Positions 1 to 26,967 of a stretch of DNA of 36,119 nucleotides are shown piece after piece. Origin of the DNA: a virus. The translations under genes and the position numbers were made by a program. Every line of letters starts with the position of its first letter. Position 1 is the stretch's first letter. The stretch lies in IMG/VR virus record IMGVR_UViG_3300037156_000035, positions 1-36,119 of that record; one strand, given 5' to 3'. A model generated the notes under the pieces. It did no database searches. It saw only the letters and a program-made list of their open reading frames with translations, and was not told the origin of the DNA.

Positions 1-126
1 CCATTTGTCGTTCCTTTAATATATACAATGTTATTTGAGGCAGTCGTCAATTGAAGCGCATTTAGAGATCCTGTGCCCGATAATGTCATTGCTCCAAATG
101 TAGGAGTGCTAGATGTTGCTATTGAT
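1..126. repeat. 126-bp terminal direct repeat (circular overlap), left copy
   Basis: The first 126 bases are identical to the last 126 bases of the window (35994..36119). The repeat lies in the middle of a tail-fibre coding frame, not at a gene boundary, and the frame continues correctly when the ends are joined. This is what an assembler leaves when it closes a circular or circularly permuted genome, and it gives a true length of 35,993 bp. A genuine short terminal repeat is possible but less likely inside a coding frame. Confidence 0.93.
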
Positions 127-1871
127 TGAGGCAAACTTAATGTAACAGCTCCAGTAGGGGCGCTTGCTATAACCTGATTAGCAGTCCCAGTAATACTGGA
201 AACCGTACCAGCTGTAGTTGCCAATGTACCACTTGTTGGGAATGTCACATTAGTCGCACCAGTCATAGTAAATACAGAGGCAAACGCACCAGACGTTGCC
301 AGTGTTCCGGCTAAGGTCAAGGTATTAGAGCCGTTATTTACCCCGGTTCCACCCAATACAGGGGAAACAATTCCTGATAAATTTACAGTTATTGAACCAC
401 TACCATTCGCGACTGTAATGTTTGTACCTGAATTAATTGCAGCAGCAACGGGCGCTCCAGATGTAGTGCCTACTAATATCTGCCCAGCAATTAATGGTAC
501 CCATGCAGGAAGTCCCGATCCATCGGTAGTCAATACGCCTTGGTTGGCAATCGTTAAGCCGCTTAATGTGGTTCCAGCAGCTGCATAATAAGCAATTTGA
601 TTTATCAAACCCGGATTAACTATACCGGAGGCACCAGAGGTAAAGGCCACAGTTCCATCGGCATCAGGAAAGGTTACAGTTCGGCTGGTTGCAGTATTTG
701 CAAAGGCAAATGTAGTTGAATGTTGAGCCGATGTACCGCTTTCAATTATCAGTGGGGATGTATTTTGTGATACAAAAATATGTTGGCCAGTAAGTTGCGC
801 ACGATAAAGCATGCCTATATTGGTATCTGTTCCTAATGCGCCAATTTCTACGGGATTTCCTGTAGGGCTGTTATTCACCGCCATGTAATTTACAGCACTT
901 GGATTAAGATTCATTTGGAATATAACATTACCATTGGAATCAAAAATTGTTCCTGCTGTAAGGTTCAAGGTATTGAATGTCACGTTACTCGTTGGCGCAA
1001 TATCTTGTGGTGTTGACAGGATAATATCCGTACCTGTAACAGGAGTTCCTGAAGTACCATTTACTAAAACCTGACTAGGAGTTCCTTGAAGACTCAATAC
1101 TGTGCCATTTGTATAAGCAACAATACCATCCGTGTCTTGCCAAGTAGCTGTTCGGTTAGCTGTAAGGGTTGGGATGCTAAAATTTAATCTAAAGATATTA
1201 GAAATAACATTAGGTTCCATGTAGAAAGGAATGGAACTTGTTTGACTTTGAACAGCTACTGCACCAGAACCTTTGCCAGTGATCGTTAAATCAATATTTG
1301 TTCCAACTCCAGCAGACGAGATTATAGGAGCGCCCGGATCAATGGATGAAGTCAGTACAATATAATTGTTTGCAGTAATCCCAGCTGTATCAAATCCAAC
1401 TACGATATTACCATTAATATCTTTCACGCCAGCGGGTGATTGGAAATATCCAGTAAAGCCCGGTCCATAATAATCGGTGCCATTGACAGCTATATCGAGC
1501 GTCGCAACGCCTAAAGTTATGGTTTGCTTCAGTATGCCGTTTGCCAAAGCACCTAAGTTTTGCGCATCAGGTAAGCTTGAGTCAGCCGTGTAGGTTACAA
1601 ATGGGCCTTGAGTGAATGCACTCTCTTGCAACTGAGTCCATTGACCTAGAATCGCATCGTAATACTCATAGAGCTGATCGTCTGTATTAAATCTCAGGCG
1701 ATAGTTTATGGCCGACGATGGTGCGGGTCGGTCTGCTGTAGAACCGGGAGGTAAAAAAGTCCAAGGATTGTTAAATAGCACGTTTGCGCCGCTTAATAAT
1801 CCCGGTACTTTGTCATTGTTGGCAATGTCACCGCCAGCCGTCATCTGACTAAACTTTATAGTGTCTACCAT
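1..1871 (-). CDS. Tail fibre protein, N-terminal and central part (runs off left edge)
   Basis: Large virion protein, probably a host-binding fibre. The ATG at 1869..1871 follows an AAGGA ribosome site in the gap after the preceding gene. The frame stays open to base 1 and rejoins the frame at 35399..36119 through the terminal overlap, giving 821 aa in all. The N-terminus begins MVDTIKFSQM. The sequence is rich in G, T, S and N and carries the low-complexity repeats usual in phage fibres, including two copies of a PQ(D/S)IA...TF element near residues 290 and 580. The product is likely a trimeric beta-rich fibre at the tail tip; the receptor cannot be told. The fibre call rests on composition, repeats and position after the ejection genes, where P22 has its tailspike. 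Confidence 0.8.
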   Translation of the reverse strand, partial: MVDTIKFSQMTAGGDIANNDKVPGLLSGANVLFNNPWTFLPPGSTADRPAPSSAINYRLRFNTDDQLYEYYDAILGQWTQLQESAFTQGPFVTYTADSSLPDAQNLGALANGILKQTITLGVATLDIAVNGTDYYGPGFTGYFQSPAGVKDINGNIVVGFDTAGITANNYIVLTSSIDPGAPIISSAGVGTNIDLTITGKGSGAVAVQSQTSSIPFYMEPNVISNIFRLNFSIPTLTANRTATWQDTDGIVAYTNGTVLSLQGTPSQVLVNGTSGTPVTGTDIILSTPQDIAPTSNVTFNTLNLTAGTIFDSNGNVIFQMNLNPSAVNYMAVNNSPTGNPVEIGALGTDTNIGMLYRAQLTGQHIFVSQNTSPLIIESGTSAQHSTTFAFANTATSRTVTFPDADGTVAFTSGASGIVNPGLINQIAYYAAAGTTLSGLTIANQGVLTTDGSGLPAWVPLIAGQILVGTTSGAPVAAAINSGTNITVANGSGSITVNLSGIVSPVLGGTGVNNGSNTLTLAGTLATSGAFASVFTMTGATNVTFPTSGTLATTAGTVSSITGTANQVIASAPTGAVTLSLPQSIATSSTPTFGAMTLSGTGSLNALQLTTASNNIVYIKGTTN

Positions 1872-1895
1872 CACGAATCCTTGTGATTATGGATG

Positions 1896-2247: not shown

Positions 2248-3894
2248 TTATTCAAATCTGATACATTTTGACATAAACATGGTCAACTGAGTTATGTTGA
2301 ATGGCGTTCCGCTGCCAGTCGATGTCGTTGTAGTTGGCCCGTTAGAGGCAATGACAATTGGATTTGGCCCGGCTATGACAGAAGCACTTCCTAGTCCAAG
2401 GGCCACACTATGCGTATGTCCTACTAATTCACCTGATTGCATGGTATGCGTTGCTTCGCCCGTCACCCCTCCGATACCACTATTGGTCACAGTTACGATT
2501 CCTGCGCCTCCAGCACCTGCAACCACATAATCACGTTGATCATAAACATTGAATGTAGTCGAACCATCTCCGTTTGGAGCTGCAAAGAATCGGACTACTG
2601 ATGCTCCAGAAATAGTGGCTGCAGCTGACATAGTGATTGTTGTGCCACTGATGCCTGAAATTGTTGTTGATGAAGGTATGCCATTCCCTTCCAATGGCAT
2701 GCCTATGCGATATTGGGCGGATGATGCAACTGTAAATGTAGTCATGGTGCTTGTTAATGTTACTGTTTCCGTCTTGGTCATTGCTTGAAATAACAAATTA
2801 AATGCAGATCTGCTATAAGCCGTCCCATCACATAATAAATAATGCGCTGGCGTTCCAAACCCACCATATTCAATTACAGTACCTACGGGCACTATGGGAT
2901 AAGCTGTATTATAGGTTTGATCAATTTGACGGTTAATTGAGTCTTGAATAAAACTTTGTTCAACCGGCATGTCTTCGACTATCAATTGTATTGATGTAAC
3001 ATAAATATCTATGTTGCTTGGTATCGAGAGCTCATAATCGATGTATGCAGCAGGCGGTAAATCTGTATTGGTTGATTCAGGCAATAGACCAACGCCTGTG
3101 TATTCATTTAGGCTTGTATTTAAGCGAACAACGTTTAATACGTTTGCCAAAAGCGAACCATTTGAATCAAATAAATTGGCATTAATGGGCCCTATAGAAA
3201 CTGAATCAGATCCAATTTCAGCGGTGAGTGTTGACGATACATATTTGTTAGCCCATAGCATTCCATTCTGAACGAATCTCTGCCTTAAAAAGGCCGATCC
3301 AGACGTCCAGCCACTTAACTGCAATCGCAGTGCATACGGCGCATTAGAGGTATTTAGCTCAAGATCATTAAATGGAACTTGGGTTATCGTTGCGGTTCCT
3401 GTTCCTGACAATTCCAAGAACCAACCGGGCCCAATTTGTATTGGATCGGGATCAGTGCCAGTAAATGTATATGTAGGAGCAGCAGTTGTACCAAAATCAA
3501 TTAGCGCAAACTGAGGATTGGTGATTTGATTGCTTGATGCAAACGCTACTGTATCCACAGGTGTTGATCCACCATCTCCGGCCACATAATTCTCAACTAA
3601 ATATATCAATGGATCACTTTGTGATGGCTCACCTAGACCGATATGCTGGCGAAACTCTAAGCGATAAACCACTCCTGATTCGAAGTATACATTGTTTGGA
3701 AGGGTCCCATTTCCTAAGAACTGAATAGGGTTAGTCCATGGGGTTTCTAAGTCTGGATCTTGATAGACAGTTAACGGGATATAAGGGATAACATTGCTCA
3801 ATACCCACAGGTAATAGGTATCGTCAAAGATGCGACCAGCTAGGTTGAACTCCGCCCAAATGGGGTTGCTTCCCCTGATTCCCAAACTAGCCAT
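2248..3894 (-). CDS. Tail fibre/tip protein with a tail-collar-type C-terminal domain
   Basis: A 548-aa virion protein. Two Met codons stand together; the second (3894) is chosen because AAGGAG lies six bases before it but only three before the first. Residues 1-320 form a beta-rich body. From about residue 335 the sequence resembles the phage tail collar domain: a GTVIEYGG stretch, LLCDGTAYSRSAFNLLF, then GDGSTTFNVYDQRDYV, and a GHTHSV motif near 493. The collar domain is split at the loop before GDGSTTF by an insert of about 63 residues (376-438). That insert is related to segments in the 156-aa and gp4-like proteins of the same phage. The protein probably sits at the tail tip or as a side fibre. 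Confidence 0.8.
   Translation of the reverse strand: MASLGIRGSNPIWAEFNLAGRIFDDTYYLWVLSNVIPYIPLTVYQDPDLETPWTNPIQFLGNGTLPNNVYFESGVVYRLEFRQHIGLGEPSQSDPLIYLVENYVAGDGGSTPVDTVAFASSNQITNPQFALIDFGTTAAPTYTFTGTDPDPIQIGPGWFLELSGTGTATITQVPFNDLELNTSNAPYALRLQLSGWTSGSAFLRQRFVQNGMLWANKYVSSTLTAEIGSDSVSIGPINANLFDSNGSLLANVLNVVRLNTSLNEYTGVGLLPESTNTDLPPAAYIDYELSIPSNIDIYVTSIQLIVEDMPVEQSFIQDSINRQIDQTYNTAYPIVPVGTVIEYGGFGTPAHYLLCDGTAYSRSAFNLLFQAMTKTETVTLTSTMTTFTVASSAQYRIGMPLEGNGIPSSTTISGISGTTITMSAAATISGASVVRFFAAPNGDGSTTFNVYDQRDYVVAGAGGAGIVTVTNSGIGGVTGEATHTMQSGELVGHTHSVALGLGSASVIAGPNPIVIASNGPTTTTSTGSGTPFNITQLTMFMSKCIRFE
2584..2772 (-). repeat. Recurrent 63-aa beta domain, copy A (inside collar domain)
   Basis: Residues 376-438 of the fibre protein follow the pattern TETVTLTS..TFTV...Y..G...GNGIP..T.I..I...TI....ATISG.SV..F. 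The same pattern recurs at 7716..7901 and 10351..10536. Protein similarity is clear over the whole length, and short DNA stretches such as the ACATTAAC encoding part of VTLT are also shared. Confidence 0.85.
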
Positions 3895-3914
3895 CATTAA
3901 CTCCTTTTAAATGC

Positions 3915-3943
3915 TTCCAATTTGCTCAACCTTGAGCTATAAT
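3915..3943 (+). promoter_or_regulatory. Putative sigma70 promoter for the small plus-strand gene
   Basis: A perfect TATAAT at 3938..3943 stands 17 bases after TTCCAA (3915..3920), a weak -35. It lies in the only gap where a plus-strand gene begins inside the late operon, and an AGGAGG site follows at 3954. The leader would be very short. Confidence 0.5.
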
Positions 3944-3966
3944 GCCCTTTTTTAGGAGGGTTTGTT

Positions 3967-4140
3967 ATGTTATGGTTAATACCTATGTTATTTTTTATTG
4001 GTTCTATTCGTATCTATAATAATTTAACTTGTACAGAAGGTTGGTACAAAGAAAACTGGTCAACATTCTTCAAAAGAGTGATATTCGGTAAGTTGCATTG
4101 TAAAGAATTTAACATCACCGATGACCGCCAACAAGATTAA
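3967..4140 (+). CDS. Small plus-strand membrane protein inside the late operon (57 aa, moron-like)
   Basis: This 57-codon frame starts at ATG 3967 after a consensus AGGAGG site (3954..3959) and ends in TAA at 4140. It overlaps the 3' end of the converging 596-aa gene by 26 bases. Residues 1-17 (MLWLIPMLFFIGSIRIY) form one hydrophobic segment, followed by a soluble part with two cysteines and several aromatics. The frame, the ribosome site and the TATAAT promoter all point against the surrounding late transcription. That is the layout of a moron, a small gene expressed on its own. A role in superinfection exclusion or envelope modification would fit but is not shown. Confidence 0.65.
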   Translation: MLWLIPMLFFIGSIRIYNNLTCTEGWYKENWSTFFKRVIFGKLHCKEFNITDDRQQD

Positions 4141-5905
4141 GTTCTAAGGGTTTTTTGTCCTGTTCTCCTGCTGCTTGGGAAACCCCCTTTGTTAAAGCCG
4201 TTAAGAAGGCAACAAGCTTCAGATGTTTTCCAGATATTTTATTAATATCCTGAAGCTGTTTTTGCCAATCTTTACTGGTAATGAACTCAATTGCTTTCTT
4301 GTCATTTTTTCCTCCAGTAAAAATATGTTCGAATGCATTTTCTAAAAATTTTCCTGAAGATCTGGATTGATTCATACCGTATTCTTCTTTCCCCTTGGCT
4401 GTTTTTATAGTTCTCTCTCCGAGAAGCTCTTTAAAAACTAACCGCATATCCTTCAAGTTTTGAACCGCTTCAGGCGCATTTTTTAAGCGACCTAACACTT
4501 CATCAAATTTCTTTTGTGATGCAAGAGCTTGATAAAAGTTAGTTCCATTTATTGCTTTCCGGTCAAAAACCTTTTCCAGTCCTTCACGAACGATTTTTCG
4601 CTCATATAGTGCTCTTGCATTGGCATATTCTGGGAAAGCAGCGTCCATTTGATCACGCATATCTCTCCGAGTATTGGATATGATTCGTGCTTCATTATTA
4701 TTGCCTGCACGTTCAGCTTTGTTGACCATGTCATCCATTGCCCGCTTCACATGATCCCAATAGACAAGACTAGTGGCTTGCGGATCGGCCTGACCTTTTT
4801 TCAATTTAACATTTTTAGGCATCAATGCTTTTAAGCTTTCCTTATAAGCAGGCGTGTTCTCAACGGCGTTTTTAGCCTCTTTAATTATCTCATTATCTTT
4901 GTATTGCAATGGGAAGTCTTGAGGCAAATTCACCTCATTGATACTTTTATATGCTTCCTCAACTTGTTTATCCATCTTTTCGGGTGAATATATTTTATTT
5001 AATGTTGCCTCAATGGCGCGACGTTCACTTTCTTCTCGTCCCTTCAATTTCTGATGAAGAATTTGCTCACCTTCTTCTGTTTTACCAAGCCCCCCTTGTC
5101 GTGATGCGGCAATGCGACTTTCACTTGCTTCGGCAGGTGTTAAATAGTCAAGGCCTAAACGATTTGCGGCAGCCATTTTTTCAGTTGCAAGCGGGGTATT
5201 TGCATGCTTGGCCAGCTCATTAAATCTGTCTTTATCACTTTTCATGCCTCTCCCGCCCAATATGGCGGAGGCTAGACCCACGACTTCAGATCCCGTTTCA
5301 CCCAATCCCAACCCTTTTGCAACATGATGGCCCACAAGACCAAAAGCACCGCCGCCCAGAATTTTAGCAGCAATTCTAGCCTTAGGATTGGTGCTTCCCA
5401 TTAACTGAGTCAAAATACTAAACGGTACTTGAGTGGCTCCTGCCTCAGCTCCTGCTTTGGCTTGATCTTGAGGGGCTTGCGCAGCAGCATACCCAGCTTG
5501 CGGAATAGCCTCAGATATAGCCTTAGATAATAATTTACCTACTCTGGGGATCTTGGTGATAGCTTGACCTGCACGACCCAGTCCAACGCCTGGAAGGGCC
5601 ATTGATGGGCCGTATTGGGTTAACATCTGAACTAATTTATCACCAGAGTCTGGTTTTTCAACTCCAAATAACTTGCTAAAATCATAATCAGATGGCGAGC
5701 CTTCTGGAATACGACCACCTGAAATCTTGTGGGGAAGGTTAGCAAATTCACGACCAGCATTTAAAATACCTATAGCTGGGTCTTTAAGTCCATAGCGGAC
5801 TACCTTATGAAGCAAATTTTCATTGTCTTCAGGTTCAGCTGATTGTCTTCTGGCTATTTCTCGGCGTGCAAGTTCTGCTCGGGCTTGAGATGCTGATGTA
5901 GCCAT
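4115..5905 (-). CDS. DNA ejection protein, P22 gp16-like position (596 aa)
   Basis: Probably an internal virion protein released into the host envelope with the DNA. It starts with TAATG overlap to the preceding stop and has GGAGG six bases upstream. The N-terminus is Ala/Arg-rich. Residues 95-230 are rich in Gly/Ala with several hydrophobic stretches, such as GPSMALPGVGLG and AKILGGGAFGLVG, as expected for a protein that enters membranes. From 240 on it is long, charged and helical with coiled-coil character. Length is close to P22 gp16 (about 600 aa) and it is third in the set of three, the gp7-gp20-gp16 order of P22. The assignment rests on order, size and composition, not on a clear motif. 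Confidence 0.68.
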   Translation of the reverse strand: MATSASQARAELARREIARRQSAEPEDNENLLHKVVRYGLKDPAIGILNAGREFANLPHKISGGRIPEGSPSDYDFSKLFGVEKPDSGDKLVQMLTQYGPSMALPGVGLGRAGQAITKIPRVGKLLSKAISEAIPQAGYAAAQAPQDQAKAGAEAGATQVPFSILTQLMGSTNPKARIAAKILGGGAFGLVGHHVAKGLGLGETGSEVVGLASAILGGRGMKSDKDRFNELAKHANTPLATEKMAAANRLGLDYLTPAEASESRIAASRQGGLGKTEEGEQILHQKLKGREESERRAIEATLNKIYSPEKMDKQVEEAYKSINEVNLPQDFPLQYKDNEIIKEAKNAVENTPAYKESLKALMPKNVKLKKGQADPQATSLVYWDHVKRAMDDMVNKAERAGNNNEARIISNTRRDMRDQMDAAFPEYANARALYERKIVREGLEKVFDRKAINGTNFYQALASQKKFDEVLGRLKNAPEAVQNLKDMRLVFKELLGERTIKTAKGKEEYGMNQSRSSGKFLENAFEHIFTGGKNDKKAIEFITSKDWQKQLQDINKISGKHLKLVAFLTALTKGVSQAAGEQDKKPLELNLVGGHR

Positions 5906-7002
5906 TAACCACCTCCGGCAATTTTATGTAATTCTTCTTCAGTCATTTTTGTGTAGTCTTCAGGAGCCGTAGCTGTTGCTGTGATATTGCCACCATGCAA
6001 TTTAGCCTTAGCATCCTCTTGTCTATTTACAATTTGCTTGCGAATAGTTTGCAATCTTGTTATATAATTTGAATCAGATTCACCTGACTTTCTCAACACC
6101 TTATCCTCAGCTTTTTCGGTTCCAGAATCTGTATTAGGAATGGTATATGCATTGCGAATACCGTCCAGCAACGTGGATACTTCTCCTTTATATGTCGCTT
6201 GCTTATCTCTTTTAAATAGCGCACCGATAGCTTGTCCCGGAACATTCCCTTTTTTAGTCATCTCAATAATATTATCAATAATTGGAAGGGCCGTAGTGGC
6301 ACCTCCAACGACTGCTTGATACTTGGATTTTGTTTTATCGGTTAAAACTTCCCCGGTACCTGATTTATTTTGTTTTTTAATTGCTTCTTTTTTATTGAAT
6401 AAATCAAGTGCAGTTGCTTCTTTTTGCGCAGGAGTTTGCGCAGCAGGTGCAAAAGGATCATATCCCAATTTATGCTTCAAAAAACCCCGAACCAAAGGAT
6501 TGTTCATTAGTGCATCGGGTTGGCTCCCATTATCAGCTGGGGCACTTTCTTGTTGTTGAGCCTCAATTGCTTTTTGTCCAGCAGATATGGGTTGGCCTAA
6601 TGCCATATCATCACCATTATTGGGAGGCACATAGGTATTAGGGGAATCACCACCGTTGACATTTTCACCAGTGCTCTCAACGCCGGTACTAGTATCATTA
6701 GATGCAGGCGGTTGTCCTCCACCTGTTAACATATCCTGTAATGCTTTATATTCAAACATTGGGTCGTTTTTGTGTTTAAGACCTAGCAATTGCTCTTCAA
6801 GAATCTGTCTATTGATTCCAGAGTTAGCACCTAGACGAGACTCTTGTTGCTGTTTAAATGCCATTTCTTGGGCGAACTGATCGGCCTTTTGTTTCAAGAA
6901 TTCTTTCTGGAGCATTTTTTTTAATAAATTGTCAGAAGTATGATGGAATCCTTTAGCAAAGATATCCATTCCACTGCCAACATTAGGAATATTGAGCGCC
7001 AT
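5905..7002 (-). CDS. DNA ejection protein, P22 gp20-like position (365 aa)
   Basis: Probable internal virion protein. It starts at ATG 7002, nine bases after GGAGG, just after the stop of the 192-aa gene, and its own stop overlaps the next ATG. Residues 15-80 are strongly helical and Gln/Lys-rich. Residues 95-180 are Pro/Asn/Gly/Ser-rich and look disordered. Residues 215-350 are helical again and contain a TKSKYQAVVGG stretch. No enzyme motif is visible. Translational coupling with both neighbours and the P22-like order suggest that it is co-assembled and ejected with them. Confidence 0.62.
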   Translation of the reverse strand: MALNIPNVGSGMDIFAKGFHHTSDNLLKKMLQKEFLKQKADQFAQEMAFKQQQESRLGANSGINRQILEEQLLGLKHKNDPMFEYKALQDMLTGGGQPPASNDTSTGVESTGENVNGGDSPNTYVPPNNGDDMALGQPISAGQKAIEAQQQESAPADNGSQPDALMNNPLVRGFLKHKLGYDPFAPAAQTPAQKEATALDLFNKKEAIKKQNKSGTGEVLTDKTKSKYQAVVGGATTALPIIDNIIEMTKKGNVPGQAIGALFKRDKQATYKGEVSTLLDGIRNAYTIPNTDSGTEKAEDKVLRKSGESDSNYITRLQTIRKQIVNRQEDAKAKLHGGNITATATAPEDYTKMTEEELHKIAGGG

Positions 7003-7004
7003 GA

Positions 7005-7583
7005 TTATTTACCTCCAGACAAATAATTTCTTATCAAGTCCTGAATCATAGATGCACCTTGACCAAATACTGTACCGGGAGCGTTTGTTTGGTTGTATTG
7101 TAACTGTGCTGTATTCTGACCCATATTCATATTGTTATTGCTTTGAGTCGTCGCAGCGCCAGCACCAGTGTTGTATACTCCTGAACTTAATCCAGCGCCT
7201 GTTTTGTATTTTTCCATCAAATCATTTAAATACTGTTGTCTATCCTGATTCCCAATTTGAGAGGTTCCTGCCTGAATAGCATTTAATGCAGTATTTGAAC
7301 CACCAAGCCCCATTGAACTGGCAGCATTAAGACCATGTTCTTGAGCCATGGTTTCATTTTGCTTGGCAGCCTCTGATTCATGATAATTTTTAATCCACTC
7401 ATCCTGTAATTTCTCAGGGTGCATTAAATTATCAATGTAAGATTGCAGATTTTTATATTGATCTTGCCCGTTTTGATTATAAGGCTGTACATTGGCCTGC
7501 GCCTTATCGTAATATTCCTTTAGTTTTGCAGCAGCATCTTTATAGCCTTTCTCAGGATGCAAAAAACTGGATAACATACTCAT
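7005..7583 (-). CDS. DNA transfer/ejection protein, P22 gp7-like position (192 aa)
   Basis: It begins MSMLSSFLHPEKGY, a hydrophobic head followed by a helical Lys/Gln/Tyr-rich body. The second half (residues 85-175) is Gly/Ala/Asn/Gln-rich with SSMGLGG and GAGLSSG segments. Small ejection proteins of podoviruses commonly look like this. AAGGAG lies eight bases before the start. It is the first of three tightly packed genes, where P22 places gp7. The function is by position and composition only. Confidence 0.62.
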   Translation of the reverse strand: MSMLSSFLHPEKGYKDAAAKLKEYYDKAQANVQPYNQNGQDQYKNLQSYIDNLMHPEKLQDEWIKNYHESEAAKQNETMAQEHGLNAASSMGLGGSNTALNAIQAGTSQIGNQDRQQYLNDLMEKYKTGAGLSSGVYNTGAGAATTQSNNNMNMGQNTAQLQYNQTNAPGTVFGQGASMIQDLIRNYLSGGK

Positions 7584-7595
7584 GATCTCATCTCC

Positions 7596-8066
7596 TTATG
7601 GATAGGCTGTAGTCGTAAATTGCACTAAAGCCCCGTTTTGCATCCCTACATAAACATTTGTTGTTGTGTCATACAACACAATACCATTGGTGACGCCTAC
7701 CCCATTCGTTGGGATAAATACTAAAACTGATGATCCAGTTATTGTAGCATTAGAATCTAGCGTTATTGTATTAAGTGTGATGGATAAAATATTAGTATTG
7801 TCAGGAATGCCATTTCCTATGACATTGTCCCCAACATTATAAAGAGAACCATCTACGACCGTAAATGTAGGCAAACCAGACGTTAATGTTACTGTCTCAG
7901 TTAGCATGGCATAACCCGGAGCCGTTAAATAATTAAAGGCATTCTGCACATCACCTATCGTTTCATTCAACGTATCAATCAATACCCAAAGCCATTGTAA
8001 AAACTGAGGGTCAAAATCTCCACTAACAATAGGCGCTGAGTCAATTCTATCTAAGAATAAAGACAT
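7596..8066 (-). CDS. Tail-associated virion protein with recurrent beta domain (156 aa)
   Basis: It lies between the gp10-like gene (TGATG overlap at its start) and the ejection genes, where P22 carries the tail needle gp26 and gp14. Residues 1-50 are helical, with the stretch WVLIDTLNETIGDVQNAFNYL interrupted only briefly. Residues 56-117 are a copy of the beta domain also found in the fibre and gp4-like proteins. The last 35 residues (from GIVLYDTT) form a short beta tail. It could be a needle or plug component, but no triple coiled coil long enough for a P22-type needle is visible. A GGAGGGG ribosome site precedes the start. Confidence 0.7.
   Translation of the reverse strand: MSLFLDRIDSAPIVSGDFDPQFLQWLWVLIDTLNETIGDVQNAFNYLTAPGYAMLTETVTLTSGLPTFTVVDGSLYNVGDNVIGNGIPDNTNILSITLNTITLDSNATITGSSVLVFIPTNGVGVTNGIVLYDTTTNVYVGMQNGALVQFTTTAYP
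7716..7901 (-). repeat. Recurrent 62-aa beta domain, copy B
   Basis: Residues 56-117 of the 156-aa protein match copies A and C in the pattern ETVTLT...TFTVVDGSLY.VG..V.GNGIP..T.I.SI...TI..NATI.GSSVL.F. Here the domain makes up about 40 percent of the protein. Confidence 0.85.
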
Positions 8067-9847
8067 CAGTTAGCCCCTCCACTGACACGTCGGGTGTTGC
8101 GCACAGCCCCCAATATAACAATGGGCGCAGAACTCACACACACAAGCTTGTAGCAACGATTTCTACTACACCCTAACTCATACCAGCGCATACGCCAACG
8201 GTATTGCCCAAGGGGGCTAAACTCGCGTAAATCAGCCGTTAGGAATGTTTCGCCGCCATCATCAGAATAATAAAGCTCAATGTGAGGTTTAAATAAAGCG
8301 TTATAATGATTGTCATCAAAAGTGGGTGTGTTTGAACCTTCGGCAATAACGAATTTATCATCTTCAGAGACAACATAAACCGGCGAAATATCAGTAGAAC
8401 TCTCACTAACAACAAAAACGGTATTAAGAAAAGGAGCATTGCTCTTATAAAAAGTCTTGTTACCAAATACAAAATCGATTTCAACATATTCATCTAAGAA
8501 CTCCGCGTAACCATCGATTGATATCTGTTGCGTAACCAGTTCATAACGCATCGGGAACTTTAAGAACGCATCATCTGCCTGATCACTTTCTCTATCAGGA
8601 TTTAATAGTTCATTGTGATAGATGTTTCCTGCCATCTGATAAATAGCGGCATCATTCAAAACAATCACTAAATGCGCATTATTGAAATACACGTGTTTTT
8701 GTATGCGTGAACGCTCACCATTCAGCTCAATGCATCGTCCCCATTTTTTTGTGTCAAAATTATATTCTATTGAGTTTGAGTTATCGACTATATCCAAATC
8801 GCCAAAACTCACAAACTGACCAGCACTTGCCCGATAGAAAATAGTATTCTCATACTGATACAAGAATCCATCCACCTCATTCGTTAGAAATGGACTCAAT
8901 TCATTATCATGCGTTGAATTTTCTAACAGAACGTTAATGGCCTGAGAAGATATCACACTAGGTTTCTGTCCACCACTCATCATGAATGTGACAAGTCCCG
9001 TGGAGTTCTTAGCTAACCATACCATCATGCCAAAATCTACTGATAAACTGTTTGGATCAGCAATTCCATAATCGAAATTGTATGAACTATTGATTTTCCA
9101 AGGAAACTCACGTGTAACTCCCCCAACTGTGATCTGGGTGATAATATTTGCCCATACATCCGTGGTGAAATCGCACATAATGTACAATTGATTTTGTAAT
9201 ACTGCAAATTGACCGATGATGCCTGATGCTCTGTTATTTAGTGCTGCACCTAAGCTTGGATCGGTAAAATAAGTACCCGCATTTCCTGATAGATTGATTT
9301 GCGTTAAATAATAATCAGGGGTATCAGCCACACTCACTACAAAGCGGTTACCGAACGCTGCAACATAGAGAGGTTTACCTCCGGTAGTGGAGCCACCGGG
9401 GGCGTTTGGATCGGTAACCACCTCGGATGTAGTCACAGAGCCATTCTCTGTAATTACAAATATATTTTGTCCATCCGTTAACATATTGTAGACGATAGTT
9501 CCTACTGCCAACGTTGCCCACCACAAAGGGCCACCGAGAGCAACAGATATAGACAATGTTTTTTGATTGTAGAACCTATCGTATTGATAAACCGTGGTTC
9601 CATCGACTACATAAAAATAATTGATTGATTTAAATTCTGCCCGTGGTTGAGCTGAAAATATTAAACGGTTCACATTTAAAAACCGTACATGCTCACGTCC
9701 CATGGTTGGGTATAAGGCAATGGCTTTTTTGCCAGATTCACACGTTATCATATACCAGTTGGCGCAATCCTGAGCACCAAATTGTTTAAACCGTTGTTGG
9801 TCATACCATGTAAAAATCTGCAATTGCTCTATTTTAGCCTGAGCCAT
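8066..9847 (-). CDS. P22 gp10-like tail hub / packaged-DNA stabilisation protein
   Basis: A 593-aa protein that likely closes the portal channel after packaging, stacked on the gp4-like adaptor. The ATG at 9847 is chosen because it overlaps the preceding stop (TAATG) with CAGG upstream; the GTG eight codons earlier has weak support. The body is beta-rich and propeller-like, with aromatic repeats and motifs common in this family: NWY near 30, VDGTTVYQ, PLYVAAFGNRFVVS, and a C-terminal HIELYYSDDGGETF followed by YRWRMRWYELG. It is longer than P22 gp10 (472 aa). Gene order coat, gp4-like, gp10-like is as in P22, and the stop overlaps the next start. Confidence 0.82.
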   Translation of the reverse strand: MAQAKIEQLQIFTWYDQQRFKQFGAQDCANWYMITCESGKKAIALYPTMGREHVRFLNVNRLIFSAQPRAEFKSINYFYVVDGTTVYQYDRFYNQKTLSISVALGGPLWWATLAVGTIVYNMLTDGQNIFVITENGSVTTSEVVTDPNAPGGSTTGGKPLYVAAFGNRFVVSVADTPDYYLTQINLSGNAGTYFTDPSLGAALNNRASGIIGQFAVLQNQLYIMCDFTTDVWANIITQITVGGVTREFPWKINSSYNFDYGIADPNSLSVDFGMMVWLAKNSTGLVTFMMSGGQKPSVISSQAINVLLENSTHDNELSPFLTNEVDGFLYQYENTIFYRASAGQFVSFGDLDIVDNSNSIEYNFDTKKWGRCIELNGERSRIQKHVYFNNAHLVIVLNDAAIYQMAGNIYHNELLNPDRESDQADDAFLKFPMRYELVTQQISIDGYAEFLDEYVEIDFVFGNKTFYKSNAPFLNTVFVVSESSTDISPVYVVSEDDKFVIAEGSNTPTFDDNHYNALFKPHIELYYSDDGGETFLTADLREFSPLGQYRWRMRWYELGCSRNRCYKLVCVSSAPIVILGAVRNTRRVSGGAN

Positions 9848-10776
9848 TAGATACCTGCCCGGACGCGCCACGCCCCGTTAAGCAATGATTGCTCATCGCC
9901 CATGATGGATAGATTGACCTCGCTAGCAGATTCCATATTGTCCTTCAGTTCACGGTATTCTGCTTCTAAATCAGGTGTCCATGCAGAACCGCGTCCTTTA
10001 AACTTTGATACATACTTGGCTACTGCATATAAAAAATACATGTGCCAGTACTCAGGAACCATGCTTAAGTCATCATCAACGGTAAGCGCGGGTAATTGAA
10101 ATTTACCTCGACAGAAAAACTCAAAAAACTGACTTGGCGCAGGATATAAACGCAAACTTACATAATTAGTATTCGGGAATGTAATTGCAAATCGTGGCAA
10201 ACCCTTGAGAGGATCGTATTTCCATGCCGATAAATAATCATCACGGGATTTTTCAATCAAGGGATAAGTGACACCGCTCAATACAAGCCATGCATTATCA
10301 AGATTTGCTAGGCGACCCTTCTTAATGTAAACGGTATCTGTTTCCGCAGCAAAAGTCAGAACTGAAGTGCCAGAAATAGTGGAATTACTGGAGATTGTTA
10401 TCAGTTGGTCTTGAATAGAAAATATCGTGGTTTGAGGCGGTATACCATTCCCGGTAACAAGGGAGCCTACTGCATAAATGGATCCATCAACCACCGTGAA
10501 CACGTCCGATCCTAATGTTAATGTCACAGACTCAGTCTGCGTGTTAGTCGGATAGGACGGATCACAAAATATAATGTCTCTAATCCCATTGTTAACAGGA
10601 GCAGAGACAGTTTGAGCTATTGTTAACATAAGTCCAGAGCTTGCATACGATTGCATAATTTGATTCAACACACGTACGGCCAGATTCTCGTCATCCCCAT
10701 GCAATGGAATTGTGGGGTTCGATGCGCTGATTAATCGATACATTTGTAGAACAAATTCTCGGACAGTTAAGAACAT
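9847..10776 (-). CDS. P22 gp4-like head-completion (tail adaptor) protein with inserted domain
   Basis: A 309-aa protein expected to form the ring under the portal. Residues 1-75 are helical (TVREFVLQMYRLISA, NLAVRVLNQIMQSYASSGLML). Residues 145-309 contain PLIEKSRDDYLS, a typical RLYPAPS segment near 210, and a helical end with YAVAKYVSKFKGRGSAW. Residues 81-142 interrupt the fold with a copy of the beta domain also present in two other virion proteins, which explains why it is much longer than P22 gp4 (166 aa). The start overlaps the preceding stop (TAATG) and its stop overlaps the gp10-like ATG. Confidence 0.8.
   Translation of the reverse strand: MFLTVREFVLQMYRLISASNPTIPLHGDDENLAVRVLNQIMQSYASSGLMLTIAQTVSAPVNNGIRDIIFCDPSYPTNTQTESVTLTLGSDVFTVVDGSIYAVGSLVTGNGIPPQTTIFSIQDQLITISSNSTISGTSVLTFAAETDTVYIKKGRLANLDNAWLVLSGVTYPLIEKSRDDYLSAWKYDPLKGLPRFAITFPNTNYVSLRLYPAPSQFFEFFCRGKFQLPALTVDDDLSMVPEYWHMYFLYAVAKYVSKFKGRGSAWTPDLEAEYRELKDNMESASEVNLSIMGDEQSLLNGAWRVRAGI
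10351..10536 (-). repeat. Recurrent 62-aa beta domain, copy C (inside gp4-like protein)
   Basis: Residues 81-142 read TESVTLTLGSDVFTVVDGSIY then VG..VTGNGIP..TTI.SI, closely like copy B (FTVVDGS shared exactly). It is bounded by CDPSYPTNTQ on one side and TDTVYIKKGR on the other, which look like two parts of one adaptor fold. Confidence 0.85.
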
Positions 10777-18177: not shown

Positions 18178-18525
18178 TTATTCAACCAGCTTGTCAATAA
18201 GCATCTCGACCAGCTTCTTGTTGGTCACACCCTCTTCATCTTTCTCGCGCCATTTAGCGCGTGTTTTTAACCAGAAAATCATAGCTGATAGGTCATCGCC
18301 CTCTGTAGCCTTACGAAATAGTTTAGCCGCTACCTTGGCATTTGCACGCACAACACTATTGTCCAGTTCATCTCGGTAATGAATTCGAAGTGTCTCGGAG
18401 TGAATTTCCAAATGATCAGCTATTTGTTCCTGTGTATTACCAAAACTAACAAGCGCACCAACCTCCGCCCGTGTTTTGTCAGTCGGTTGATGAGGTTTTG
18501 TTTTGCCAGACTTAGGAGTTGCCAT
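18178..18525 (-). CDS. Terminase small subunit-like, helix-turn-helix protein (115 aa)
   Basis: Likely recognises the packaging site and recruits the large subunit. Two adjacent ATGs exist; the second (18525) is preferred because GAGAGG lies six bases before it. Residues 18-55 form a helix-turn-helix (TRAEVGALVSFGNTQEQIA then DHLEIHSETLRIHYRDEL). Residues 60-95 are helical with FWLKTRAKWREKDE, a stretch common in small-terminase-like proteins next to large terminases. It overlaps the end of the methyltransferase gene. The alternative is a general DNA-binding regulator. Confidence 0.78.
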   Translation of the reverse strand: MATPKSGKTKPHQPTDKTRAEVGALVSFGNTQEQIADHLEIHSETLRIHYRDELDNSVVRANAKVAAKLFRKATEGDDLSAMIFWLKTRAKWREKDEEGVTNKKLVEMLIDKLVE

Positions 18526-19738
18526 CATTAGCCTCTCTTACGGCCTGTTTGCCGCTGTATGTTTCGTAACGCTGAATAATAACATCGCAATATTTGGTGT
18601 CTAGCTCCATCATCAACGCACGACGTTTCGTCTTCTCACACGCTATCATCAATGTGCCTGAACCCGCAAACGGATCGTAAACATACTCACCGGGGTTTGT
18701 ATGATGCTCTATAGAGCGGATATATAAACCAACAGGTTTTTGTGTAGGGTGCTCTGTCTTGTCATCTTTGGTCTTTTCACCAGCCGAGGCGTTAGGTGGC
18801 TTTTCATCCCAAACAGTGGTCTGCTTACGATCGCCCTTCCAGTTAGCCGTTGAACCTTTCTTTACCGCATACCAGCAAGGTTCATGCTTCCAGTGATAAT
18901 GAGATCGACCCATAACCAGCGACGGCTTGTTCCAAATGATTTGTTGTTTAACGTCAAATCCCGCGTCGCGTAAGTTAGCCATCACCACATCTGTGAATGC
19001 ACTAGCGTGCCATACATAGGCAATAGACCCAGGGAAAAGTACATAGGTGTCATACCAGTCGGCACGGTCGTCGTTTTTAACGACGTTGGCGTTATTCTTG
19101 CCACCTGTTCTTGCCTTATCACGCCATGACATATCAAGTTTTACGCCATACGGCGGGTCTGTGACCATAGTATTAGGTGCCTGACCGGCTAGCAGGCGTT
19201 CAACATCAGTTGCGACAGTAGAGTCCCCACATAGAAGGCGGTGGTCACCCAAAAGCCAAACATCACCAACCTGACATCGCGTCTGCGCATCCAACGGCAA
19301 ATCGTCTTCACCGCAAAACACCTCTGCAACCGGCTCTGGAAATATCTCAGATAGCTCTTCAAGATCAAACCCCGTTAATGTCAAGTCAAAATCAAACTGC
19401 TTCAAAAAATCAAACTGGCTGACCAGTATTTCATTATCCCAACCAGCATCCAACGCTATCTTGTTGTCCGCTATAACCAAGGCCGCTTTTTGAGCATCAC
19501 TTAAATCAGGCAATACAATACACGGTAATTCGGAAAGACCCATATATAACGCCGCAGCCAAACGACCGTGACCCGCAATGATGGTATTGCGTTCATCAAT
19601 AAGTAACGGATTGGTAAAACCAAACTCATTAATTGATCGTACAATTTTAGCTATTTGTTCATCAGAATGAGTGCGTGAGTTAGCTGAATATTTGGCCAAC
19701 TCACCCACTAAAACACTTTTATAATCGCGGAGAGTCAT
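18512..19738 (-). CDS. ParB-like domain fused to a beta-class DNA methyltransferase (408 aa)
   Basis: Residues 8-90 are a ParB/Sulfiredoxin-type domain (YSANSRTHSDEQI, then IIAGHGRLAAALYMG at 53-67, and LVIADNKIALDAGW). Residues 150-395 are an N6-adenine or N4-cytosine methyltransferase: catalytic DPPYG at 194-198, HPTQKP at 330-335, and the AdoMet-binding DPFAGSGT at 355-362. DPPY before FAGSG marks the beta class. Such fusions are common in phages and probably mark phage DNA against host restriction, or act in regulation. Target sequence cannot be read. It has no clear ribosome site and starts five bases after the small upstream ORF, so it is probably coupled. Confidence 0.9.
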   Translation of the reverse strand: MTLRDYKSVLVGELAKYSANSRTHSDEQIAKIVRSINEFGFTNPLLIDERNTIIAGHGRLAAALYMGLSELPCIVLPDLSDAQKAALVIADNKIALDAGWDNEILVSQFDFLKQFDFDLTLTGFDLEELSEIFPEPVAEVFCGEDDLPLDAQTRCQVGDVWLLGDHRLLCGDSTVATDVERLLAGQAPNTMVTDPPYGVKLDMSWRDKARTGGKNNANVVKNDDRADWYDTYVLFPGSIAYVWHASAFTDVVMANLRDAGFDVKQQIIWNKPSLVMGRSHYHWKHEPCWYAVKKGSTANWKGDRKQTTVWDEKPPNASAGEKTKDDKTEHPTQKPVGLYIRSIEHHTNPGEYVYDPFAGSGTLMIACEKTKRRALMMELDTKYCDVIIQRYETYSGKQAVREANDGNS

Positions 19739-24462: not shown

Positions 24463-24882
24463 ATGCAAGATTTCACTGATACAGACCAACAAGAGCAATG
24501 CTTAACAGATAGCGTCAAAGAGCTTGAAAAGGTCAATAAGCAACTGGCTAAGTTGCTTGTACGCAAGGATGAATTAACCGATATCATCATTGGCGCACTT
24601 GAACATGACCACCCTGGTCAAAAAACATATGAATACGGCGTGTGGAAATTAGAGGTTAAAACCCCGTTTTCTTATTCACTCAATAAAAAGCTGTATGAAT
24701 CAGCAATCATAAAATTACCTGATGACTTCAATCCCATTAAAACATCTGTAGCCTACTCCATTGATAAGCGTCTTTGTGAACAATACATGGATAGCGCACC
24801 TAAAAAGGTTCGTGATGCATTGCGTGAACTAATTGATATTAAGCCCGGTAAAGCTGGCGTTACTATAAAAGCGAGAATGTAA
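24463..24882 (+). CDS. Early protein with N-terminal coiled coil (139 aa), upstream of the Sak4-like ATPase
   Basis: First gene of the early operon, with AGAGG upstream. Residues 10-50 form a coiled coil (CLTDSVKELEKVNKQLAKLL). Residues 62-139 resemble a widespread phage protein found with recombination genes: YGVWKLEVKTPFSYSLNKKL, LPDDFNPIKTSVAY, SAPKKVRDALRELIDIKPGK. The role is uncharacterised; a partner of the ATPase and SSB-like proteins downstream is the natural guess. It is coupled to the next gene by TAATG. Confidence 0.72.
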   Translation: MQDFTDTDQQEQCLTDSVKELEKVNKQLAKLLVRKDELTDIIIGALEHDHPGQKTYEYGVWKLEVKTPFSYSLNKKLYESAIIKLPDDFNPIKTSVAYSIDKRLCEQYMDSAPKKVRDALRELIDIKPGKAGVTIKARM

Positions 24883-25550
24883 TGATCCCACCTATTTTAA
24901 TTTTGGGAAAACCGGGGGCTGGTAAGTCAGCCTCCTTGAGGAACTTGGATCCAAAAACCACATTTTTAATCAATGTGATTGGCAAGTCGTTACCTTTTAA
25001 ATCATTCAAGAAGGACTACAAACCTTTGACTGGATGGAATGACAAAGAAGGAAACCGATACGCTTCTGATAAGATTGAGAACGTCTTAAAATGCATTTCA
25101 GTAGTCAACAAGAACAGGCCAGAGATTAAAACGCTGGTGATTGACGATTGGCAATATATTTTGTCTCACGAGTTTATGCGCCGAGCTAAAGAGCGTTCAT
25201 TTGACAAATACAATGACATGGCCTGCAATGGCTGGCAGTCTATCATGGCATTGAAAGAGCTTCGTCATGATTTGCTGTCTGTGGTCATGGCTCATAGTGA
25301 GCTGGATAATACAGGATTTGCACGCCTAAAGACCGTTGGCAAGCTGTTAAGTGAAAAAATGGACTTTGAGGGTGAGTTTGAGATGTGTTTACATGCTCGT
25401 GTTGAAGATGGAGAGTATTTGTTTCAAACCCAACAAGACAGTGAGTATATGGCGCGTACACCAATGGAGATGTTTGAAGAGTTATTAATACCGAATGATT
25501 TGTTGACCGTGATTAATGCGGTTAAATCTTACTTTTACGATGAGGAATAA
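24882..25550 (+). CDS. Sak4-like RecA-fold ATPase, single-strand annealing recombination (222 aa)
   Basis: P-loop ATPase of the phage AAA/RecA-like group often called Sak4. Walker A is GKPGAGKS (9-16). Walker B is TLVIDDW (84-90). LSVVMAHSEL near 125 fits sensor/strand 4. Length (222) is usual for this group. It lies before a DUF669 SSB-like gene and a Cas4-like nuclease, the usual company of Sak4. Together they would anneal or exchange homologous single strands during replication. It starts at the TAATG overlap. Confidence 0.82.
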   Translation: MIPPILILGKPGAGKSASLRNLDPKTTFLINVIGKSLPFKSFKKDYKPLTGWNDKEGNRYASDKIENVLKCISVVNKNRPEIKTLVIDDWQYILSHEFMRRAKERSFDKYNDMACNGWQSIMALKELRHDLLSVVMAHSELDNTGFARLKTVGKLLSEKMDFEGEFEMCLHARVEDGEYLFQTQQDSEYMARTPMEMFEELLIPNDLLTVINAVKSYFYDEE

Positions 25551-26316: not shown

Positions 26317-26967
26317 ATGACAATAAACAAACTAACAAAACTGATTGAAAAATCGCAAGCAAAATCAGTTGATGAGATACGAAACTACATCGGAGCCAGT
26401 GGCATTGGTTCCGATTGTTTGCGTCAGATTTGGTATCAATATCAAGGTGTGGAGGGTGAGTCTGTTCCTGCGCGTACAAAGCGTATTTGGGCAGTAGGAA
26501 AGCGTCTTGAAGGATTGATTTTAGATTGGCTGGAAGATGCTGGTATTGAGATTGCAAGAACTTGGTGTGATTTGAAAGCCGATGGGATGCCTTATTTTCA
26601 GGGTCATGTTGATGCGGTATGGATTAAAAAAGGCATAGCATTTGCCATTATCGAAGTAAAAACCGCCAAGGCTGCCAGTTTTGGTGTATTTGTTAAAAAA
26701 GGCGCTAAGGTTTGGAACCCGCAATATTATGCGCAGATTCAGAGCTATATGGGAATGAGCGGGGTATTTAGTACATATATACTAGTACTAAATAAGGATA
26801 ATAGTGATCTTTCCGATGAATTGGTGAAGTTTGACCCTGTTTTTTATGAAGGATTGAAACAAAAGGCTTACATGATTCATAGGGCTACAGTTGAACCTCC
26901 GAGGATTCACGGTAGTCCAATGTATTTCAAATGTAAAATGTGTAAGTTTAATAAGGTGTGTCATTAA
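26317..26967 (+). CDS. Cas4-like PD-(D/E)XK exonuclease with four cysteines (216 aa)
   Basis: Probable ssDNA-producing nuclease for the annealing system. Motifs: GKRLEG with Glu65, GHVDAVW with Asp99, IIEVKT with Glu113 and Lys115, and QYYAQIQSYM (136-145) as the QxxxY element. Cys34 and the C-terminal CKMCKFNKVC (206, 209, 215) could hold a 4Fe-4S cluster as in Cas4 and AddB. AGGA stands six bases before the ATG. It takes the place of exonuclease beside the Sak4-like and SSB-like genes. No CRISPR genes are present, so a role in spacer acquisition is unlikely. Confidence 0.87.
   Translation: MTINKLTKLIEKSQAKSVDEIRNYIGASGIGSDCLRQIWYQYQGVEGESVPARTKRIWAVGKRLEGLILDWLEDAGIEIARTWCDLKADGMPYFQGHVDAVWIKKGIAFAIIEVKTAKAASFGVFVKKGAKVWNPQYYAQIQSYMGMSGVFSTYILVLNKDNSDLSDELVKFDPVFYEGLKQKAYMIHRATVEPPRIHGSPMYFKCKMCKFNKVCH

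Follow-up and report, generated by a model that had tools for sequence, protein, structure and literature searches.

A beta domain of about 62 residues that lies within three otherwise dissimilar virion proteins of one virus is probably a promiscuous surface module that plugs into unrelated structural proteins. The window, by which we mean the whole 36,119-base virus record analyzed here, comes from a P22-like podovirus; its minus strand carries the genes for the terminase, head and tail, and a portal gene was identified (PF16510, E 7.5e-95). The copies, all on the minus strand, lie in a head-tail adaptor of the P22 gp4/tail tubular protein A type (309 aa, 9847..10776; domain at 10351..10536, residues 81-142), in a 156-aa protein referred to here as p156 (7596..8066; domain at 7716..7901, residues 56-117) and in a 549-aa collar-type tail fibre (2248..3897, PF07484; domain at 2584..2772, with its start at 2584 or 2587). 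The three host proteins align to each other essentially just over the domain, with pairwise local scores of 143-178 vs. maxima of 60-77 over 100 shuffles. Together with the translations, these scores confirm the three locations that a preliminary description of this DNA had given. The copies are 48-61% identical in pairs (61% for p156 vs. the adaptor and 48% for the adaptor vs. the fibre), 27 of the 65 columns in their alignment are invariant, and a search of the genome with its own domain returned exactly three places and no fourth.

In each protein, the domain separates two parts of its host. The adaptor belongs to the P22 gp4/tail tubular protein A group by both fold and gene position: the fold neighbours of its model (pLDDT 79.4) are adaptor chains of portal-tail complexes (9k09, 8zkk, 9nwi and 5mu4), hhalign paired it with the tail tubular protein A of Xanthomonas phage PBR31 at a probability of 97.4%, and a relative, PAE2_7, is annotated as pfam11650, P22 tail accessory factor. 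A direct Pfam match to the window's adaptor was not obtained. In the model, a beta region lies between a pair of N-terminal and a pair of C-terminal helices, and the insert forms six strands placed between two strands of that region. The fibre copy divides the Collar domain at position 35 of its 57-position profile. PF07484 scored 23 bits on the intact fibre and covered positions 1-35 of 57, but when the insert was removed in silico the score rose to 29.6 bits, passing the gathering cut-off of 24, and coverage extended to 1-54 of 57. These results bear out the interruption that had been proposed for the adaptor and fibre, and p156 adds a case that the earlier account did not contain. Gene order suggests that p156 is a tail-needle-like protein, since its gene, flanked by a gp10-like and a gp7-like gene, lies where a tail needle (P22 gp26) would be encoded; the gp10-like neighbour, a nozzle or head closure protein (8066..9871, minus strand; phrog_578, head closure Hc3, E 6.7e-19), carries no copy of the domain. 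In p156, the domain replaces a linker of ~15 residues between N-terminal helices and a C-terminal beta tip, and in the predicted structure only the domain is modelled with confidence (block means of 76-97, elsewhere <60).

The domain could be tied to a solved structure. PDB 8ECI, the capsid decoration protein gp7 of Arthrobacter phage Bridgette, was the best fold match of the p156 model (Foldseek E 7.2e-4, probability 1.00, rmsd 2.0) and was also matched by the adaptor model (E 6.1e-4, probability 1.00, rmsd 2.2, 34% identity), with alignments of 73-74 columns at rmsd 2.0-2.2 and 29-34% identity. Two of the three host proteins, the adaptor and p156, were modelled, and both models match this one structure. 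A sequence profile of the domain likewise ranked 8ECI first in the PDB (E 0.055-0.21), and a broad profile to which metagenomic copies had been added scored Bridgette gp7 at 32.7 bits, compared to 16.0 for the best of 2000 shuffles. The similarity to gp7 spans the domain, including the GIPxxTxI turn. Profile and fold therefore identify the same domain in gp7 and in the window, and the window's segments are homologous to that domain without being decoration proteins themselves: gp7, whose gene adjoins the major capsid gene, is a free-standing capsid decoration protein with a C-terminal part of its own, whereas the window's copies are internal to tail proteins. By sequence profile and predicted fold, the segment is a small beta-barrel that folds independently, with ~62 residues in six strands, and it belongs in one family with the N-terminal part of gp7.

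We then asked how constant the domain is among relatives, using 80 genomes fetched via the major capsid protein. With the window counted among them, 68 of 76 adaptors carry the domain and eight do not; the insert-free adaptors are ~240-250 aa long, compared to 310-320 aa with the domain, and their flanks join directly. On a tree of the adaptor flanks, the domain label changes at least four times, and the starred branches force two of these changes. One insert-free adaptor (L051), whose flanks are at most 78% identical to the window's in the best segment, sits within a 100/100 clade of carriers, indicating that loss occurs and that its own lack of the domain is probably a loss. Some of the deeper gains and losses could be recombinational replacements of whole adaptor genes. 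The domain also diverges faster than the adaptor body (mean identity of 58% vs. 70%), although its core is conserved. The domain is dispensable in nature, but its retention in 68 of 76 adaptors may mean that it matters more than the word "dispensable" suggests. As an essential ring protein whose insert-free orthologues reach 78% flank identity, the adaptor offers a well-sampled natural experiment in domain gain and loss.

Orthologues of p156 are normally ~98 aa long and lack the domain: it was present in only three of 54 (those of the window, L006 and L019) and absent from 51, with two further carriers (L086 and L087) found by the domain search. Every collar-type fibre found in the window's family carries the domain, and the fibre copy may for that reason be an integral part of the protein in this family. 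The fibres of L054, L092 and L096 have two tandem copies in the Collar loop, and the unrelated Bordetella phage PHB04 has the domain at the identical Collar position, 35 of 57. As separate observations on these families, p156 proteins have two alternative C-terminal halves on shared N-terminal helices, either the short beta tip or a domain unrelated to it that ends in TGFVIV (an alternation seen across window 7596-8066, L010, L030, L034, L036, L040, L046, L059 and L072), which from the sequences looks like a swappable needle tip. In the window's family, fibres share their N-terminal half (~320 aa) but end in one of two C-terminal halves, a Collar-type one or a longer one unrelated to it. At the left end of the window, a reading frame that resembles a fibre (window 3-1874, minus strand; at least 624 aa) continues past the edge, so the record is probably incomplete there.

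The domain is common in the virion proteins of many phages; the preliminary description had mentioned similar GNGIP-type repeats in other phage structural proteins. Among named phages, PBR31 and Manatee Spring phage cta1H496 have it in the same adaptor loop as the window (the cta1H496 match being weak, E 1.7e-4), whereas the adaptors of VvAW1, Vibrio 1.211, PAE2, P26218 and DSL-LC05 run straight through the loop without it. Other carriers are a protein of P-RSP2, the gene transfer agent (GTA) TIM-barrel-like protein of RcZahn and a Manatee Spring phage protein annotated as "phage stabilization protein", with weaker matches in many cyanophage structural proteins. As the diverse alignment (A4) was too variable for a search of contigs, we searched with a DNA pattern encoding the G(T/N)GIPAxTTI turn, which found at least 119 loci in viral contigs; a host reading frame with the domain was present at 118 of the 119 matches listed. 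Among those listed matches we sampled 59 dissimilar host proteins. Some of these match families of Collar, tail tube, sheath and nozzle proteins or of minor capsid, cement and neck terminator proteins, and the sample also covers a wide range of structural PHROGs. A scan of genome contigs yielded only three loci, too few for a reliable host assignment. No match to named phages was returned by tblastn with the whole adaptor or the whole p156, and none at E 0.1 by a generic cyanophage-style consensus. Within the stretches read, and among the matches listed, more than one host gene per contig occurred solely in the window's own family. Three copies in one genome, previously considered unusual, are nevertheless not peculiar to the window, since the contig of L086/L169 also carries all three.

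Phylogenetic grouping of the copies bears on how they came to share a genome. The copies group by host gene and not by genome (three label changes vs. a shuffled mean of 22), and the adaptor and fibre copies each track the gene that carries them and go far back in the window's family; the p156 copy alone is clade-limited. DNA identity among the window's copies is 50-58% and is lowest at third codon positions (0.32-0.40), indicating that the copies are old and ruling out recent DNA duplication. All p156 copies fall into a single clade (98/89), which lies within the adaptor copies (98/79); in identity, the window's p156 copy is nearer to its adaptor copy than the latter is to the fibre copy (61% vs. 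48%). Both observations would be expected if a duplication within the window's genome had recently produced the three copies, but the low DNA identity and the clustering by host gene make that origin highly improbable. Moreover, placing p156 outside the adaptor copies is not rejected (AU p 0.21-0.37 over 62 columns, with both tests holding the same split). The nesting favours, without proving, acquisition of the p156 copy from the adaptor gene. The proposal that the cassette "spread inside one genome" thus applies at most to the p156 copy and fails for the other two, which are old and inherited. Repeats were sought at the insert boundaries, and only the domain's own conserved ends were seen.

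The converse possibility, that each family has the segment as a built-in part and that lineages without it are independent deletions, draws on its presence in nearly all adaptors and all collar-type fibres of the window's family and on the probable loss in L051, which lies inside the carrier clade. We regard it as very unlikely: most p156 orthologues have no such segment, five other named phages have adaptors in which the aligned position is free of it, and curated PF07484 contains nothing of the kind. Presence and absence among orthologues, the changes on the adaptor flank tree and the reuse of two loops in unrelated phages support the mobile structural cassette that had been proposed. On the module reading that we prefer, the domain plugs into loops at the surface of virion proteins of many unrelated kinds; the adaptor beta region and the Collar loop carry it in unrelated phages, and it has been gained or lost while the host fold stayed intact. 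It would most likely move by short-homology or illegitimate recombination, perhaps aided by the phage's own Sak4-like ssDNA annealing protein (24882..25550, plus strand; phrog_2872, E 1e-68) and Cas4-domain exonuclease (26317..26967, plus strand; phrog_1990, E 2.9e-47). The exonuclease is likely the annealase's partner, giving the phage a recombination pair of its own, and the annealase as a means of cassette exchange is a possible, conjectural role. More tentatively, and with somewhat less than even confidence, we propose that this unnamed, widespread virion domain family is a transferable surface cassette that recombination inserts at fixed hot-spot loops in unrelated virion proteins, a core head-tail adaptor among them, and has copied from the adaptor to the needle-like protein within a genome.

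What the domain does may be approached through the surfaces to which it is added. It would extend the surface of the adaptor (presumably 12 copies), the fibres and the needle-like protein, these copy numbers being estimates. Its likeliest role would be that of a generic, non-essential outer module giving weak extra contacts, either with host-surface or environmental polymers or with neighbouring virion subunits, as a decoration protein does; by analogy with gp7, a decoration-protein-like stabilizing role is possible. A more specific docking or clamping module, extending the fibre-binding beta region of the adaptor and holding fibres or needle, would be in keeping with the location of the adaptor insert in a beta region whose position corresponds to that of the fibre dock described for the T7 gp11 adaptor (PMC6702177), as well as with the decoration function of gp7 and with the protein-protein contacts mediated by the beta-jellyroll XD domains of tailspikes (PMC8825819). 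The resemblance to the T7 dock lies in a beta domain added to the helical bundle of an adaptor; the window's insert, however, adds a further domain inside a beta region of that sort, and many homologous adaptors do not have it. In two genomes (L045 and L046), an adaptor without the domain occurs together with a fibre whose N-terminal half is of the window's type (57-58% identical), so the domain seems unneeded for fibre docking, and the suggestion that it holds partners together is weakened. In addition, 13 genomes have the adaptor copy but no fibre or p156 copy, and the domain is also found in proteins whose neighbours are quite different. A domain that is dispensable, diverges faster around a conserved core, has no common partner and is sometimes in tandem looks more like a generic outer surface than like a specific clamp; the clamp we consider unlikely. 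An obligatory link between the adaptor and fibre copies is ruled out by genomes that have one and not the other.

A further comparison is with the beta-barrel insertion domain of tailspikes, which resembles the window's domain in being a small beta-barrel that interrupts another virion-protein fold and which completes the catalytic pocket in several tailspikes (PMC10653864). Three such structures were among the weaker Foldseek matches: 8bke (KP34gp57, probability 1.00, E 0.058, rmsd 5.4), 4y9v (AP22, probability 0.97) and 4ru5 (phi297). With its six strands, the domain model may have the six-stranded barrel of KP34gp57 type; the fold matches are weak in E-value, rmsds are at least 5.4, and a sequence match was not found. 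The tailspike insertion domain is also larger (~100 residues) and completes a catalytic cleft (PMC10653864), whereas neither a beta-helix enzyme nor another enzyme domain was recognized in the three host proteins or beside any of the copies, and the adaptor is an unlikely site for primary receptor binding. We therefore think it improbable that the domain is of this type. Optional Ig-like domains (Big_1, Big_2 and FN3) on tailed-phage virion proteins, dispensable in some phages (Fraser et al. 2006, as cited in PMC8718954), offer a parallel in behaviour, being promiscuous outer domains on virion proteins. Unlike them, the window's domain has no Pfam Ig match, and no Ig structure was recognized among the listed fold matches.

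The kind of phenomenon is thus already known from optional Ig-like domains and beta-barrel tailspike insertions, and the finding in the window is a real and informative instance of it. The novelty lies in a domain family outside Pfam (no family at E ≤10), in its tie to a decoration protein of known structure and in a core adaptor having one loop that is used repeatedly; we found no published description of the domain in the open papers searched. Defining a virion domain that is common yet missing from Pfam, and connecting it to that decoration protein, makes many "virion structural proteins" annotatable and the role of the module testable. Elsewhere in the window, a 408-aa protein (18512-19738, minus strand) combines a ParB-like nuclease part with a DNA methyltransferase part (phrog_498, E 7.3e-134).
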